From the IMG/VR virus record IMGVR_UViG_3300034998_000069, positions 1-20,507 of that record: a stretch of 20,507 bases of DNA; one strand, written 5' to 3'. Shown one piece after another: positions 3,198 through 13,776 of the stretch (position 1 is its first letter; each line of letters begins with the position of its first letter). A program made the translations under genes and the position numbers. Source of the stretch: a virus. The notes under the pieces were generated by a model. That model did not search any database. It was not told the origin of the DNA and saw nothing but the letters and a program-made list of their open reading frames with translations.

Positions 3198-3451
3198 AAA
3201 AGAAGTTTTTAGATACCCTAGTCGGGCGCGTATTCGTAGGTGCTTTAGGTGCCGTTCCTTATGTGGGCAAAGATATTCAAAACGAATTAAAGCAAAACGT
3301 AGCTTCACCCATTGCGGGCGAAGGTAGTGTAGATTATGCACGTTTATTCGGTTACCTAATGGTGGGTGCTTTGTTCGTGCTAAAGATTCTCGATATAATT
3401 ACCTGGGAAGATTTAGAAGCCTTTATCAAAATCATTTTCAAACTTGATTAA
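3194..3451 (+). CDS. Small single-pass membrane protein, possible second lysis protein
   Basis: 85 aa. Residues about 48-70 (LFGYLMVGALFVLKILDII) form a clear transmembrane helix. The N-terminal half is amphipathic and basic at its start (MKKKFLDTLVGRVFVGALG). It is the last gene of the rightward late operon, coupled to the amidase by an ATGA overlap, so a holin, antiholin or spanin-like lysis role is plausible but unproven. Its TAA stop interlocks with the stop of the convergent integrase gene: the two share the four bases TTAA at 3448-3451. No hairpin terminator can therefore lie between the late operon and the integrase gene. Confidence 0.65.
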   Translation: MKKKFLDTLVGRVFVGALGAVPYVGKDIQNELKQNVASPIAGEGSVDYARLFGYLMVGALFVLKILDIITWEDLEAFIKIIFKLD

Positions 3452-4701
3452 ACCACTTTAAGGTGCGCATCTTTAAAGAATGGATGTTGGGCAATTCGCT
3501 CAGCTATTTGTAGAGGTGTTACTTTAATGTACTTCAAGAAATTATTTTCGGTAGTGTGTCCGCTTATCGCCATAATGTCTATCGAGTTCATTCCGTTTAA
3601 ATAGGCGTTTGTACAGAAGCTTCGGCGCGCTGTATGTGTACATATTTTAGAGTACTTTTCTACCCGCTTTTGCACCTTCAAACCTCCAATGGTTTTATTG
3701 TCGTCTACCATTTCGTATAAACCAATCTGTTTACCCAGCTCTTTAATGATGTCGTTAATCTTTTGCGGAGGAATGCTTTTAGGCGGTGTGCCGTCGCGTT
3801 TTTCTAAAATAGATTCTACGATAGGGTGAAGAGGTATAATTACTACACGCCCAGTTTTTAGAGTCTCCTTTTTAATGTATCGGAAGTTGCCATTGTCGTA
3901 TATGTTATCTTCGGTAAGATGGGTATAATCCGAAACACGAAGTCCTGTAAAAGCGCCTATTAAAAATAGATCGCGTGCAATAGCATCGTACTCTTTTACA
4001 ATAGGCATATCGTAAAATTGTTTTAGCTCGCCTTCGGTCAGGTAAATATTATCAACTTCTTCTCTGAGTACCTTAAAGCGCTTACTCTTATAAGCTAAGT
4101 TGGTGTTGATGCCCTCATCCGTAGCATCATTTAAAACAGTCTTCAATACTTTTATGTGCTTACCTATATAGTTCAGACTATGGTTACGCTCTTCCAGGAA
4201 CTCTATAAAGTTGTAGTAGAAATCTAAGTCAATAGTATTGAAGTTGATTTTAGCGCGGTAGAGGTGGTATTGTTTAAAGTTCTTATACAATGTTCGGTAG
4301 GTTCTAACGGTGCTTAGTCTTATGCGTTTCTCGGCTTTCTCGTTATAGTCAGCAAAGTATTCCATAAAGGAAATTTTAGCAGATGGATTTTCACCGCGCT
4401 TTAAAAAGCCGTCCATCTTTACACGTAGCAAATCATTATCTACATATCCATGCGCAGAGAGTAATTCGGCATAGGCTTTAAATATAAAGGGTTCAATCTT
4501 CCGAATAGTGTCATTGATGATGTCGCGCTCCATAACCTCGGTTGTGTTTTTCACGATCTCTTTTTGAGCATTCCAGAATTTAGGTAGGACTTTGAATTTT
4601 GTTGGGTAGTAAAATCGTAATGCTCCGCTTCTAAAAAAAACATAAATAGAATTCGGTTTATCTTTTTTTGAGCCTCTAATAATAAACTTTAAGGTTGCCA
4701 T
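3448..4701 (-). CDS. int: Tyrosine recombinase, phage integrase
   Basis: 417 aa, expected to catalyse site-specific recombination between attP and the host attB. Residues 1-80 look like the Bacteroidetes arm-DNA-binding domain (KFIIRGSKKDKPNSIYVFFR). Residues about 108-205 are the SAM-like core-binding domain (ISFMEYFADYNEKAEKR) and 215-410 the catalytic domain. The active-site set is complete: Arg255 (TGLRVSDYTHL), Lys282 on the beta-hairpin (KTGRV), His356 and Arg359 (THTARRSF), His381 (ISGHTTENNFLKY) and nucleophile Tyr391. The length is normal for the family. It reads towards the late operon, and the repressor lies upstream on the same strand, 284 bases away. I see no strong promoter of its own; a CAAAGGTA at 4806-4813 gives a -7-like TACCTTTG on the minus strand. 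Confidence 0.96.
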   Translation of the reverse strand: MATLKFIIRGSKKDKPNSIYVFFRSGALRFYYPTKFKVLPKFWNAQKEIVKNTTEVMERDIINDTIRKIEPFIFKAYAELLSAHGYVDNDLLRVKMDGFLKRGENPSAKISFMEYFADYNEKAEKRIRLSTVRTYRTLYKNFKQYHLYRAKINFNTIDLDFYYNFIEFLEERNHSLNYIGKHIKVLKTVLNDATDEGINTNLAYKSKRFKVLREEVDNIYLTEGELKQFYDMPIVKEYDAIARDLFLIGAFTGLRVSDYTHLTEDNIYDNGNFRYIKKETLKTGRVVIIPLHPIVESILEKRDGTPPKSIPPQKINDIIKELGKQIGLYEMVDDNKTIGGLKVQKRVEKYSKICTHTARRSFCTNAYLNGMNSIDIMAISGHTTENNFLKYIKVTPLQIAERIAQHPFFKDAHLKVV

Positions 4702-4727: not shown

Positions 4728-4753
4728 TTTTTGCTGCTATTTTTGCTGCTATT
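4728..4753. repeat. 26-bp direct repeat copy 1 (two 12-bp units), left side of candidate attP
   Basis: Two tandem copies of TTTTTGCTGCTA plus TT, identical over 26 bases to the copy at 4957-4982. It begins 27 bases upstream of the integrase start. The arrangement suggests integrase arm-type binding sites. This copy also supplies the -33 element of a rightward promoter. Confidence 0.85.
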
Positions 4754-4794: not shown

Positions 4795-4926
4795 ATGATT
4801 AGCATCAAAGGTATGTCTTTTGCGGTTAATATAAAGGCTTGTGTATGTTTTATTACCTTTTTAGACATTATCAATGCTAACAAATCTTTGTACGCTTCCG
4901 ACCTCACCCATTACCAAGAACCCTAG
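4795..4926 (+). CDS. Possible 43-aa small protein (or small RNA) in the attP region
   Basis: Open frame of 43 codons starting MISIKGMSFAVNIK and ending DLTHYQEP, with a moderately hydrophobic centre (KACVCFITFLDII). It has a consensus promoter upstream (4730-4760), and its TAG stop lies inside the stem of a strong terminator (4921-4945). The unit is thus a complete transcript of about 180 bases between integrase and repressor, oriented opposite to both. Whether the peptide or the RNA is the product is unclear. The last codons may also be the 3' end of a host gene carried in attP, as happens when a phage integrates at a gene end and restores it. I do not recognise the peptide. Confidence 0.4.
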   Translation: MISIKGMSFAVNIKACVCFITFLDIINANKSLYASDLTHYQEP

Positions 4927-4945
4927 CAAACGCTAGGGTTTTTTT
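4921..4945 (+). terminator. Intrinsic terminator
   Basis: Perfect 7-bp stem CCCTAGC / GCTAGGG with an AAAC loop (4921-4938), followed by seven T (4939-4945). It is a textbook rho-independent terminator for plus-strand transcription and closes the small ORF unit at 4795-4926. It also stops rightward readthrough before the repressor gene. Confidence 0.85.
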
Positions 4946-4956
4946 ATGCTTGTATA

Positions 4957-4982
4957 TTTTTGCTGCTATTTTTGCTGCTATT
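4957..4982. repeat. 26-bp direct repeat copy 2, right side of candidate attP
   Basis: Same 26 bases as at 4728-4753, again two 12-bp units of TTTTTGCTGCTA in the same orientation, 203 bases away from the end of copy 1. It lies just downstream of the repressor stop codon (4986-4988, minus strand). Together the pair brackets the terminator and small ORF, the expected layout of arm sites around an attP core. Confidence 0.85.
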
Positions 4983-4985
4983 TAT

Positions 4986-5624
4986 CTACAGTCTACTCAA
5001 TACTCCTTTCACTTCCCACACGCCTTCGATGTCGTTCTTTAAGACGTTTACGGGCGGGTAATTCGAATTACTGCTCGTTAATACGATGGTCGTATCCTTA
5101 ACAGTCATTCGACGAAGGATTAATTCTCCAGCAATATCGATTAAGAAAATGTGCCCCCAATTGGTGAAGGGATTTATTAAAGTCTTTTTGATCGCTAAGA
5201 AATCCCCTTGGTTAATTTCGGGCTGCATAGCATCGGTATCACACGGGCGTATCAGTTCACAATCTGTAATCGATTGAATAGATGCAGGCGAAAGTTTATC
5301 GGTGTAATCTTTATCCTTTAATTGCGAAGCTGAAGAAGATATAGGTGCCATTACTGTAGGGGTGAACTCACCTAAGACTGGGATATTATCTTGTAACCTA
5401 TTAAGCATTCTACCATTCCCAGTTACAATCCAATTCATATTTACTTGAGGAAGTAATTTTGCAAAATCTTCTAAGAAGCCACAACTAGGCTTAGACCTAC
5501 TGCGCATAATGTTATATACGCGTGTGTTTCCTTTATAGTTTAACGCAATTGTTAAGCTATTAGAGTTGTAACCGTAATGTTCAATCACTTTTACAACGCG
5601 CTGATTTATAGCGAGTTCTTTCAT
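4986..5624 (-). CDS. CI-like repressor: HTH plus S24/LexA-like domain lacking catalytic residues
   Basis: 212 aa, probably the lysogeny repressor. Residues 5-75 form an HTH domain of the kind common in Bacteroidetes phage repressors, ending in the typical MNWIVTGNG turn. Residues about 120-210 match the S24/LexA C-terminal dimerisation fold (TDAMQPEINQGDFLAIKK, then ELILRRMTVKDTTIVLTSSN). The Ser of the usual GDSM motif is Ala132, and the catalytic Lys is replaced by Arg171, so RecA-stimulated self-cleavage should be impossible. It lies upstream of integrase on the same strand and diverges from the early operon. A promoter with -7 TATGTTTG (5652-5659) would give a leader of about 20 bases. 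Confidence 0.88.
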   Translation of the reverse strand: MKELAINQRVVKVIEHYGYNSNSLTIALNYKGNTRVYNIMRSRSKPSCGFLEDFAKLLPQVNMNWIVTGNGRMLNRLQDNIPVLGEFTPTVMAPISSSASQLKDKDYTDKLSPASIQSITDCELIRPCDTDAMQPEINQGDFLAIKKTLINPFTNWGHIFLIDIAGELILRRMTVKDTTIVLTSSNSNYPPVNVLKNDIEGVWEVKGVLSRL

Positions 5625-5644: not shown

Positions 5645-5772
5645 ACTAACGCAAACATAAGTTGCATAATAACAACAAATGTTAGTATACTTGCCTAGTA
5701 TTAAATATTTGTACTAACAAAAGTAACAAAAAAAAATGTATAATTCCTAATTGTTTTATCCTGGTAGTTAGT
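5645..5772. promoter_or_regulatory. Putative operator region with alternating half-sites
   Basis: The hexamer ACTAAC or its complement GTTAGT occurs four times in alternating orientation: ACTAAC 5645-5650, GTTAGT 5681-5686, ACTAAC 5713-5718, GTTAGT 5767-5772. The middle pair belongs to a perfect 8-bp inverted repeat, TGTTAGTA (5680-5687) and TACTAACA (5712-5719). They lie in the divergent region between repressor and early operon, where CI/Cro-type operators are expected. The rest of 5773-5940 is AT-rich. It holds a 6-bp inverted repeat AAACAC/GTGTTT (5852-5872) and no exact rightward -33/-7 pair. Confidence 0.4.
5652..5679 (-). promoter_or_regulatory. Putative repressor promoter
   Basis: Read on the minus strand: TTTG (5676-5679), 16 bases, then TATGTTTG (5652-5659), close to the Bacteroidetes -33/-7 consensus though the gap is shorter than the usual 19. 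Transcription would start near 5645, about 20 bases before the repressor ATG (5622-5624). GTTAGT/ACTAAC half-sites lie at both edges, which would suit autoregulation. Confidence 0.45.
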
Positions 5773-5940
5773 GGTTTAAGTATTTTTTGTAGTGAATATC
5801 AAGGCGTAGTAAGCGAAATAAAATTGCGTTTAAGTTTAATTAAGTGTGTAAAAACACATGGAATTCGTGTTTAAACGAAACATTTATACTGTTTGTTACC
5901 TTTTTTTTGGAATATAATAACAACATAAATTAGTATTTGA

Positions 5941-6874: not shown

Positions 6875-7150
6875 ATGACGCAACGATTAAACCGAGACAC
6901 TTCCGTAGAAGCTTACCGCGAACTTCTGGAAAGCGGGCAAATGAGCCGCAAAGAGAAAATGATTTATCAGGCAATTGTAGATATGGGCGGGAAAGCCACT
7001 AACACAAACATCGCTACGTATTTACGATTGCCTATAAATCAGGTTACAGGCCGCGTGAGAGCACTTTATTTAAAAGGCTTGATTACCGAGAATCAAAGAG
7101 TTAATAATCCGCATACAGGCAGAGCTAATTGGCAATGGAAACTGGTGTAA
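6875..7150 (+). CDS. Winged-helix DNA-binding protein
   Basis: 91 aa. Residues about 24-75 form a winged helix-turn-helix (SRKEKMIYQAIVDMGGKATNTNIATYLRLPINQVTGRVRALYLKGLI). The recognition helix is PINQVTGRVRAL and the wing region runs to the HTGRANWQWKLV end. Similar small wHTH proteins commonly precede the replication initiator in Bacteroidetes phages, so a replication or early-regulation role is likely. Start ATG 6875 sits in the ACCAATG context also seen at 6267 and 10700. The last 16 bases overlap the replication gene. Confidence 0.75.
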   Translation: MTQRLNRDTSVEAYRELLESGQMSRKEKMIYQAIVDMGGKATNTNIATYLRLPINQVTGRVRALYLKGLITENQRVNNPHTGRANWQWKLV

Positions 7151-7956
7151 CAAACTACAGCTTTAGAGTTTCGCACGCTCAAAAGTATGGTTTAGAAGAG
7201 GCGGTTATCATTTACCACTTTCAATTCTGGATAGAAAAGAATGCGGCAAATAAGATAAATGTACGCGAAGGTAATGTCTGGACTTATAACTCTGCCAGAG
7301 CCTTTTCAGAGATCTTTCCTTTTTGGAATAAGCATAAGGTTCGTAGGGTATTAGATAGCTTGATAAAGCAGAAGGTAGTGGTGAAAGGTAATTATAATAA
7401 AGCGGGCTACGATCGCACTTCATGGTTCGCATTTGTAGAGCCAGCCTCATTTTGCAGAATTGCCAAATGCATGTTGCAGAATTGCCAAATGCATGTTGCA
7501 GAATTGCCAAATGCATTTGACGAATCTGCAACACCTATACCAGATACATTACCATATAGTAATAAGCATATAGTAAACAAAGATAAAAAGGCTGTCCCGC
7601 TAAAAGCGGAACCCTCAACAGAAGGGATTTTACATCAGCATTTAATGGAGTTATATGCCGACTATGTAGAAAAAAGAACTGGTGTAAAAGCAAAAATCAC
7701 TGCGGCGGATGCTAAGTCTTTAAAAAACATAAGGCAGTATCTGTTAAAACAATGTGAGGACGATCCGGAAAAGGTAAAGCTCAGTTGGAAAGTTATCCTG
7801 GACAACCTCCACCTCTGCGAAAAGTTTTACCAAACCAACTTTCAGCTTACCGCACTTAATAAAAACTTAGTACAAATTATAGATCAGATAAGAAATGGAA
7901 CTAGCCAGAACAAACAACAGCACCGAGCTAACGCCCTCAACGAATTCAACATGTAA
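7135..7956 (+). CDS. Phage replication initiator/replisome organiser with internal iterons
   Basis: 273 aa from ATG 7135; a TTG two codons earlier is less likely. Residues 1-105 are a winged-helix replication-protein N-terminus (SFRVSHAQKYGLEEAVIIYHFQFWI, WTYNSARAFSEIFPFW, VRRVLDSLIKQKVV). Residues about 106-128 are encoded by three 22-bp DNA repeats. The C-terminal domain (about 163-255, ending FQLTALNKNLVQIIDQIRNG) resembles the DnaD/O-like tail that loads helicase. Initiators of this type bind repeats within their own gene, as lambda O does. It overlaps the wHTH gene upstream by 16 bases and the next gene by 62 bases. Helicase loading is inferred from the family; no helicase gene is visible in the window. 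Confidence 0.8.
   Translation: METGVTNYSFRVSHAQKYGLEEAVIIYHFQFWIEKNAANKINVREGNVWTYNSARAFSEIFPFWNKHKVRRVLDSLIKQKVVVKGNYNKAGYDRTSWFAFVEPASFCRIAKCMLQNCQMHVAELPNAFDESATPIPDTLPYSNKHIVNKDKKAVPLKAEPSTEGILHQHLMELYADYVEKRTGVKAKITAADAKSLKNIRQYLLKQCEDDPEKVKLSWKVILDNLHLCEKFYQTNFQLTALNKNLVQIIDQIRNGTSQNKQQHRANALNEFNM
7452..7517 (+). repeat. Three tandem 22-bp repeats, candidate replication origin (iterons)
   Basis: The unit runs TTGCAGAATTGC ... AAATGCATG, at 7452-7473, 7474-7495 and 7496-7517. Copies 1 and 2 are identical; copy 3 differs only in its last base. Each contains the palindrome ATGCAT. The period of 22 is not a multiple of three, so the same DNA is read in three different frames (CRIAKCM, LQNCQMHV, AELPNAF). 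Selection is therefore on the DNA, not on the peptide. An AT-rich stretch follows (about 7530-7590). This fits iterons plus unwinding element as in lambda gene O. Confidence 0.75.
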
Positions 7957-8686
7957 GATAAGCCAATTGGATGCGCTGCCAGGTTTAGGCTGCTTACCAA
8001 AATCGACGCTTACAGTGCTTGTAAAAACAATGTTGTTACTCTTAGGGGTAAAACCAGAGAACTATCCTAACGGCTCAGAAAAAGCAGTACTAGGCGAATA
8101 CATAAACGGTTCTTTAAAAAACTACTCGCCACTCGAAATTAGAAAAGCCTTTGAATTGGCTATTCAGGGGAAGTTAAAAGTAGAGGTCTATCAAAAGCTC
8201 GATTGCATTTTAGTTGGTAAAGTGATGAGTGCTTATGAAAAGTACAAGCAAATAGAAATTAAGAGAGAGCAAACCCAAGACGCATCCCGCAAAAGAGAGG
8301 AGCGCGAAAACAGAATTGTAAGTCCAAACGAAAAGGCGCAAATCGAAAGGGACTTTATAGAATCGTCTGTATTGCCGAGCTATAAGAACTACAAAGCAGC
8401 AGCCGATTGGAATGTGGAACAAGTACACTGTCATATTTACGATTTACTAGATCGTAGAGGTTTAGTTGAGTTAACTAACGACGTTAAGTATGGATTAATG
8501 AAAGATGCGGAATCAATACTACGCCAACGCATCGCCGAAAAGAGAGCTACTAATGGCCGTGCTTTTCAGTTACTCACCTCTGCTATGGATAACGATGTGC
8601 GAAACATAGCCAAGAGCCTTGCCTTACGACAGGTATATTTTGAATTACAACTCAGCGAAACCAACCTAATAGAAGTCTTAAAATGA
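7895..8686 (+). CDS. Replication-associated phage protein, unknown
   Basis: 263 aa, soluble, largely helical. The first 25 residues are low-complexity (NNSTELTPSTNST). Residues 28-120 are probably a compact helical domain (LLLGVKPENYPNGSEKAVLGEYI, YSPLEIRKAFELAIQGKL), followed by a long charged helix (about 118-155, KREQTQDASRKREERENR). I recognise the type as one that often follows the initiator in Bacteroidetes phages, without known function; loader or primosome-like roles are possible. The ATG at 7895 overlaps the initiator by 62 bases. The next in-frame Met (KTMLLLLG, about residue 46) would delete conserved-looking sequence, so the early start is preferred. It is coupled to the nuclease gene by ATGA. 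Confidence 0.7.
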   Translation: MELARTNNSTELTPSTNSTCKISQLDALPGLGCLPKSTLTVLVKTMLLLLGVKPENYPNGSEKAVLGEYINGSLKNYSPLEIRKAFELAIQGKLKVEVYQKLDCILVGKVMSAYEKYKQIEIKREQTQDASRKREERENRIVSPNEKAQIERDFIESSVLPSYKNYKAAADWNVEQVHCHIYDLLDRRGLVELTNDVKYGLMKDAESILRQRIAEKRATNGRAFQLLTSAMDNDVRNIAKSLALRQVYFELQLSETNLIEVLK

Positions 8687-13294: not shown

Positions 13295-13510
13295 TTAACC
13301 TGGCATACTTGTTAAATAGGCATCTCCTTTGTGTACCAATAAATTAAGCAGTGAGTCTACCGTGTAGTTGCGACCGTGTAGGATGTTGTATATAATTGTT
13401 TTGCTCATTCCTGTTTGGCGCGTGATTTCCTCAATTACGACACCTCTTTCGCTAATAATATGCGAAAGAAATTGCCCAATTAACGATCGGGCTTTCTCAT
13501 TTCTTGTCAT
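13295..13510 (-). CDS. Small XRE-like HTH protein
   Basis: 71 aa with a helix-turn-helix across residues about 24-55 (VIEEITRQTGMSKTIIYNILHGRNYTVDSLLNLL). The recognition helix is MSKTIIYNILHG, the pattern of Cro/CI-type proteins. It is a DNA-binding protein with no other domain. The start overlaps the end of the upstream gene (ATGA at 13507-13510), so the two are a bicistronic unit. It lies in a minus-strand island opposite to all neighbours, as expected of genes expressed in the lysogen. Confidence 0.7.
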   Translation of the reverse strand: MTRNEKARSLIGQFLSHIISERGVVIEEITRQTGMSKTIIYNILHGRNYTVDSLLNLLVHKGDAYLTSMPG

Positions 13511-13776
13511 CTTATAGCATTGAATTTCAACCAGTTATCAACCTCGTCAGTCCAATATCTAATTGGCTTTCCTGCAATATGAGGCAACCCCATACTGCGG
13601 TATTTAACCATCGTTGTATTAGACTTAATTTTAAAAAGTTCTTGTAACTCTTTAGTTGTTACCAATCTGCGTTTCGATGGGTTTTCCTTTCCTTCGATAA
13701 GCACTTCATGAAATATCCTCTTGAAGTACTCTTTAGCTTGTTGGTCATCTAGGTCAAATTGAATAAATTGTTTCAT
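13507..13776 (-). CDS. HTH protein, excisionase-like
   Basis: 89 aa. Residues 1-35 form a helical N-terminal segment (FDLDDQQAKEYFKRIFHEVL). Residues 37-86 are an HTH_17/Xis-like domain (RRLVTTKELQELFKIKSNTTMVKYRSMGLPHIAGKPIRYWTDEVDNWLKF), with 'xRYWTDEVDxWL' as the wing and final helix typical of such proteins. Being unlinked to the integrase, it could be a directionality factor or a regulator. A -7-like TATCTTTG lies on the minus strand at 13830-13837, about 50 bases upstream, but I see no -33 match at the usual distance. Confidence 0.7.
   Translation of the reverse strand: MKQFIQFDLDDQQAKEYFKRIFHEVLIEGKENPSKRRLVTTKELQELFKIKSNTTMVKYRSMGLPHIAGKPIRYWTDEVDNWLKFNAIR

Follow-up and report, generated by a model that had tools for sequence, protein, structure and literature searches.

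A probable replication origin of 22-bp iterons and an AT-rich 12-mer element inside the winged-helix initiator gene of a temperate phage

Most phage replication origins are unmapped outside a few models; the origin whose iterons lie within the initiator gene itself is, as a kind, already known from lambda, SPP1 and the RepA_N plasmids. The O proteins of lambda and its Stx-phage relatives bind, as dimers, imperfect 19-bp inverted-repeat iterons located centrally in gene O, beside which lies an AT-rich unwinding region, with the P gene next (PMC7466680). In SPP1, oriL is located within gene 38 and comprises direct repeats and an AT-rich unwinding element bound by gp38, and replication has been reconstituted in vitro (PMC6316719). 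Similarly, the pSK41 Rep protein binds four boxes placed centrally in rep (PMC5703833), and the RepA_N initiators have an N-terminal winged-helix (wHTH) dimer followed by a host-specific C-terminal domain (PMC5703833, PMC7145576). By analogy, lambda O, SPP1 gp38 and pSK41 Rep furnish experimental precedents for the model proposed here.

The locus described here comes from a linear 20.5-kb virus record, the whole of which was analysed and is termed the window. Its positions 7446-7585 very probably constitute a phage replication origin inside the initiator gene, made up of an iteron array for initiator dimers and an unwinding element. An earlier sequence-only reading had regarded this as an origin type of Bacteroidetes phages not known to be described; as a kind, it is known from the precedents above. 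The relevant features are:

7135..7956, plus strand: replication initiator gene, encoding P0001 (273 aa), with a wHTH, a predicted disordered linker and a helical C-terminal domain
7156..7434, plus strand: N-terminal winged-helix domain, residues 8-100, confidently modelled by AlphaFold
7330..7368, plus strand: predicted recognition helix, residues 66-78, with H67 and R70 as the putative specificity residues from covariation
7446..7467, plus strand: iteron unit 1, CTCATTTTGCAGAATTGCCAAA, dyad centre at 7458/7459
7468..7489, plus strand: iteron unit 2, TGCATGTTGCAGAATTGCCAAA
7490..7511, plus strand: iteron unit 3, TGCATGTTGCAGAATTGCCAAA
7512..7533, plus strand: iteron unit 4, degenerate, TGCATTTGACGAATCTGCAACA
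7534..7585, plus strand: probable DNA unwinding element of low stability, opening with the conserved 12-mer CCTATACCAGAT
7895..8686, plus strand: next gene, overlapping the initiator gene (phrog_26016); a candidate helicase-loading partner by position only

The initiator gene has its best start at the ATG at 7135. Its product matches the replication initiation protein family phrog_11233 (E 6.8e-33) over residues 7-104, which span the wHTH, and there are further profile matches to the DnaD-like phrog_6493 and the O-like phrog_678, the latter a distant, profile-level match (E 1.4e-8, residues 37-197). On these matches, P0001 belongs with the phrog_11233 initiators and is not filed as RepA_N. Pfam and NCBIfam gave no family model for the wHTH, and the Pfam RepA_N model (PF06970) matched neither the window protein nor the 11 scanned members; a RepA_N profile-profile comparison was weak (probability 27%), and a search of the PDB by sequence gave no credible relative of the window protein. 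A fold search of the PDB placed RepA_N initiator domains at ranks 1-3 (4pql, 4pt7 and 5kbj; probability 1.00, target TM 0.49-0.55, modest E-values of 0.014-0.04). The AlphaFold2 model (overall pLDDT 80, from a 36-sequence alignment) predicts a wHTH with helices at 12-18, 20-38, 54-60 and 66-78 and wing strands at 82-85 and 97-100, and a helical C-terminal domain at residues 162-254; residues ~107-160 are of low confidence (AlphaFold2 block means mostly 42-52) and are taken as a disordered linker. The iterons encode residues 104-133 and the AT-rich element residues ~134-151, and on this model both fall in DNA coding for the disordered linker, where they would be free to evolve for DNA recognition at little cost to the protein.

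Three 22-bp direct repeats lie out of frame within this gene, just as the sequence-only reading had reported: in its register the copies at 7452-7473 and 7474-7495 are identical and that at 7496-7517 differs in the last base only, the three being translated in three frames (CRIAKCM, LQNCQMHV and AELPNAF). TRF returns them as the top array of the window (period 22, 3.1 copies, match 97%, score 131). When placed in the family-wide register, the array occupies 7446-7533 and comprises four units, including a degenerate fourth that is also an inverted copy at 7511-7533, the minus strand from 7533 to 7511 matching the unit at 20/23 bases (BLAST and a repeat finder). A chance origin of these repeats is excluded: the gene has a local lag-22 score of 45, the highest value in 2000 codon shuffles (lags 8-60) being 17, and its lag-22 value is reached by none of 300 synonymous recodings. 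No further copy of the unit occurs anywhere in the 20.5 kb of the window, and Rfam gave no match. The array is likewise confined to the initiator gene in two complete relatives, with isolated matches to the main unit outside it only at a cost of at least 5 mismatches. No GC-skew switch, which had been proposed as a mark of the origin, is seen; the skew runs monotonically through the window and through the two complete relatives, so that this check is uninformative.

Copies 1-3 are nearly identical, like fresh duplicates, and the linker is predicted to be disordered, both of which would suit a recent and functionless tandem duplication tolerated at that place. Comparative data contradict such a duplication and leave it exceedingly improbable. 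Homologues were found by tblastn in 108 phage records, including phages of Bacteroides, Flavobacterium, Vibrio, Burkholderia, Pseudoalteromonas, Lactobacillus and Staphylococcus. In the close-relative scans the window protein alone found no relatives, and wHTH alignments were needed as the query; with these N-terminal alignments only, relatives were gathered from viral and genome contigs in addition to phage records, giving 361 loci, 231 distinct sequences and 186 clusters (<85% identity). Since selection used the wHTH alone, repeat-bearing genes were not favoured in this sample. The 160 nt behind the wHTH were then compared with 60 synonymous recodings that keep both the peptide and the codon usage. 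The mean local lag-22 score over the 186 clusters is 18.4 versus 7.2 in the recodings, and 133/186 clusters (71.5%) lie above all 60 recodings, with the other 53 failing; control segments at the same lag score 3.6 (wHTH domain) and 4.0 (C-terminus). Of the other lags, 44 exceeds all recodings in 46% of the clusters, 12 in 26% and 24 in 11%, and the remainder in 0-7%, mostly ~1%. The 22-bp period and its register are thus found in most of the clusters despite different unit sequences, which, together with the dyad covariation, the covariation of residues 67 and 70 and the locked codons described below, duplication alone does not explain.

These results bear out the claim of the sequence-only reading that conservation acts at the level of the DNA, and the check on homologues that it had proposed came out strongly in its favor, with repeats persisting while the peptide varies. 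Selection on a repeated peptide has in its favor only a similarity of style among the linker peptides (QNCxM, PNGQM, LSNG, AQKG) and is scarcely credible as the source of the repeats: 22 is not a multiple of three, the synonymous recodings lose the signal, even the in-frame lag 12 still exceeds all recodings in the fraction of clusters given above, and the protein segment encoded by the pSK41 ori is dispensable (PMC5703833).

Clear 22-bp arrays are present in the Bacteroides phages B124-14, BF766P1 and BF3-TP1, Flavobacterium phage elemoE and Vibrio phage 1.091; in Pseudoalteromonas H6/1, BcepMigl, Maritalea, Paraburkholderia, Oribacterium and several Clostridia; and in bins of Nitrospirae, Victivallales and Treponema. 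Bacteroides C3_41T2LP, Psychrobacter D'Alembert, Vibrio VH-8, Vibrio 1.247 and one Cytophagales bin are without a clear 22-bp array, and Lactobacillus phiLdb is an exception in having 24 bp instead of 22 bp. The hosts or host bins of the layout span about six phyla (Bacteroidota, Pseudomonadota, Bacillota, Nitrospirota, spirochaetes and Victivallales), as far as the labels of metagenome bins, which may be wrong, can be followed. Thus, the layout is wider than the origin type of Bacteroidetes phages for which it had been taken.

The unit is a semi-palindrome about an A-rich centre, consisting of an 18-bp imperfect palindrome and a 4-bp spacer. The inverted repeat is shown at the level of the family by dyad covariation—pairs 7:20, 8:19, 9:18 and 11:16 are complementary with z of 10-13.5 over cross-gene shuffles—and is imperfect in the window copies. 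From one phage to another, positions 8, 9, 18 and 19 show the lowest conservation in the unit or close to it (25-33% identity), and they reach 61-70% within arrays, where only contrasts between positions are used, the arrays having been picked for self-similarity (at least 20 of 44). Of all wHTH columns, the two whose covariation with these bases is strongest are H67 (positions 18/9 of the iteron) and R70 (positions 19/8), both located where the predicted recognition helix begins. At residue 67, K accompanies G at base 18 (28/43), R accompanies T (24/33) and H accompanies C (10/10); at residue 70, R accompanies C at base 19 (39/45) and G accompanies A (8/8), with weaker preferences of D, mostly for G (5/7), and of Q, most often for T (6/13). 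The window fits this code, having H67 with C18 and R70 with C19. Covariation is inflated by related sequences, and the 67/18 pair is still the top one in sets reduced to <70% identity (91 sequences) and <60% identity (46 sequences). A test on 64 disjoint nearest pairs, which is a partial control, finds that base 18 tends to change where residue 67 does (odds ratio 9.6, p 5e-5), and most of the top places among the 308 tests of this kind, in which pair divergence is only partly controlled, go to helix residues 66-74. W49 (domain position 44) also covaries strongly with positions 1, 3 and 17, but this signal probably stems from a few outlier sequences and was discarded, being missing from the top pairs in the redundancy-reduced sets.

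This covariation, the best evidence on the point, suggests that it is most probably the initiator's own N-terminal wHTH that binds the array. The sequence-only reading, which had taken the repeats for a protein-binding array, is supported in this. The covariation speaks for binding and not for replication, and the array might instead be an operator of the wHTH, serving autoregulation or copy-number control by titration or handcuffing, with the origin elsewhere. Repression is common among wHTH proteins, and iteron-binding initiators frequently autoregulate as well. An operator is nevertheless an unlikely account of the locus, for the array lies ~310 bp within the gene and not at a promoter, and the conserved AT-rich 12-mer right after the last unit, found in 129 arrays, is the anatomy of ori-lambda rather than that of an operator. 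Iteron arrays occur in partition and packaging sites too; a centromere-like or packaging function is a very improbable reading of an array that lies inside the initiator gene and covaries with the recognition helix of the initiator, and no partition gene was recognised beside it.

A replication origin, the preferred reading, is further indicated by the AT-rich stretch that the sequence-only reading had seen after the array, and which starts at 7534. When stability is ranked over 50-bp windows, its positions 7536-7585 are among the lowest 0.8%; over 80-bp windows the element is only among the lowest 12%, a fall in rank from which the stability dip can be seen to be short. In the 129 anchored arrays, the units stand in a single register relative to the following CCTATACCAGAT, and the AT-rich 12-mer element follows the last unit directly, with no base between them. 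Unit sequences vary among the phages; the constants are the 22-bp period and the point at which the following element joins the array. The codons of CCTATACCAGAT are nearly fixed across the family, to an extent not seen for the same codons elsewhere in those genes: CCT at 86% versus 30%, ATA at 97% versus 38%, CCA at 99% versus 37% and GAT at 100% versus 62%. This locking also holds in several genes of >50% GC. The family element consists of about three 12-bp blocks (CCTATACCAGAT, ATAAACACAGAT and AAAAAAACAGAT), of which the window has the canonical form in the first only. As lag 12 is in frame, the peptide may give part of its signal; the choice of codons is skewed nonetheless. When reverse-complemented, the 12-mers may resemble the 13-mers of E. 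coli oriC, a likeness given no weight here. A possible link of these blocks to TnnT, the single-strand motif of DnaD (PMC10201434), was also considered.

As to the known systems, the lambda-type traits found in the window are several repeats in the initiator gene, imperfect inverted repeats and an adjoining AT-rich region, and the comparison with lambda gene O that had been drawn earlier holds in anatomy. The lambda iteron TCCCTCAAAACGAGGGA, like the units of the window family, has arms around an A-tract. The two part ways in that the lambda iterons start 20, 24 and 23 bp apart as against the strict 22 bp of the window family, and in the junction to the AT element, which is fixed to the base in the window family, unlike in lambda; no CCTATACCAGAT 12-mers are present in the lambda stretch examined. 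The likeness to SPP1 gp38/oriL, compared by anatomy, lies in having both repeats and an unwinding element within the initiator gene; SPP1 differs in having a second origin, oriR. With the RepA_N initiators (pSK41 Rep and PLE RepA), the family shares an N-terminal wHTH and, as in pSK41, iterons in linker-coding DNA, together with semi-palindromic iterons converging on an A-tract and a conserved DNA-binding domain set against varying C-terminal domains (PMC5703833, PMC7145576). The RepA_N genes examined from bacterial genomes (e.g., L370, L372, L374, L376 and L378) have repeats behind the wHTH mostly of 23 bp, one base longer than the 22 bp of the phage family. The DnaD-like initiators of Staphylococcus, Listeria and Bacillus phages have a related wHTH with an intragenic array directly behind it, in which spacing alternates between ~22 and ~23 bp; the resulting lag of 45 is in frame, and the linker peptide therefore repeats as well. 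Such lag-45 arrays are seen, for instance, in L365 and L364, from Staphylococcus and Listeria phages.

Within the proposed origin, each 22-bp unit would be bound by one winged-helix dimer, a step that the covariation supports. With three good units and a degenerate fourth placed two helical turns apart, the dimers would lie on one face of the DNA, as the sequence-only reading had also envisaged, and might form a complex like the O-some. The A-rich centres would bend the DNA and put strain on the immediately adjoining AT-rich 12-mer element, which would then melt, upon which the host replicative helicase would be loaded by the C-terminal domain, possibly aided by the product of the next gene. 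We infer the steps after dimer binding, and with them the use of the locus as an origin, from lambda, SPP1 and RepA_N. The open-access literature searched yielded no data on binding or replication for any member of the family.

The gene directly after the initiator in relatives often codes for a DnaC-like loader, DnaB or a primase-helicase; in the window no helicase or loader gene was recognised. On the other side, the gene of a small second winged-helix protein (6875-7150; TrmB-like, phrog_1123) runs into the beginning of the initiator gene, and two relatives, L004 and L018, have a small HTH or replication protein at the same place. The C-terminal domains fall, by BLAST, into 11 multi-member groups and 26 singletons. 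In three pairs (L340/L351, L030/L139 and L080/L300) the wHTH domains are 84-89% identical, yet the C-terminal groups differ, and L030 and L139 have similar iterons despite this. These patterns look as if C-terminal exchange occurs at the origin-bearing linker.

It is possible, if still somewhat doubtful, that all this reflects an origin class spanning phyla under a single grammar: strictly spaced 22-bp semi-palindromic iterons, a fixed base at the junction, 12-mers of the CCTATACCAGAT and ATAAACACAGAT-like kinds whose single strand is recognised either by the initiator or by a universal host factor, specificity set chiefly by two residues of the recognition helix, and the linker as the joint for C-terminal exchange. 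If so, origin and protein sequences would each be predictable from the other. The open-access literature searched contained no account of the strict 22-bp grammar, of the conserved 12-mer element or of the recognition code, which does not by itself prove novelty. The probable origin, together with its binding unit and melting element, can be read from the initiator gene alone in well over 100 phages of several phyla, including Bacteroides phages such as B124-14; with the two-residue code, both binding specificity and the compatibility of origins become open to direct test, and the fixed 22-bp step with the conserved 12-mers sharpens the question of how such initiators open DNA.

The virus of the window is a temperate phage; among its other genes are:

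3448-4701, minus strand: integrase
4986-5624, minus strand: repressor (S24)

The integrase has a domain that is common in Bacteroidota, which is at most suggestive as to the host. Between the two genes are identical, intergenic 26-bp copies at 4728-4753 and 4957-4982, 229 bp apart and each with tandem 12-mers TTTTTGCTGCTA, which might serve as operators or, around attP, as arm sites of the integrase. Between these two 12-mer clusters, a hairpin at 4916-4943 (AAGAACCCTAGC / GCTAGGGTTTTT) followed by a T-run is likely an intrinsic terminator. Upstream of the S24 repressor gene, a 23-bp direct repeat ATAATAACAACAAATGTTAGTAT at 5666-5688 and 5914-5936 (87% identical, 248 bp apart) possibly represents repressor operators. 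Farther along, at 13295-13776, two small overlapping genes on the minus strand stand among plus-strand genes, one with a weak match to RelB-like antitoxins and the other coding for an HTH protein.
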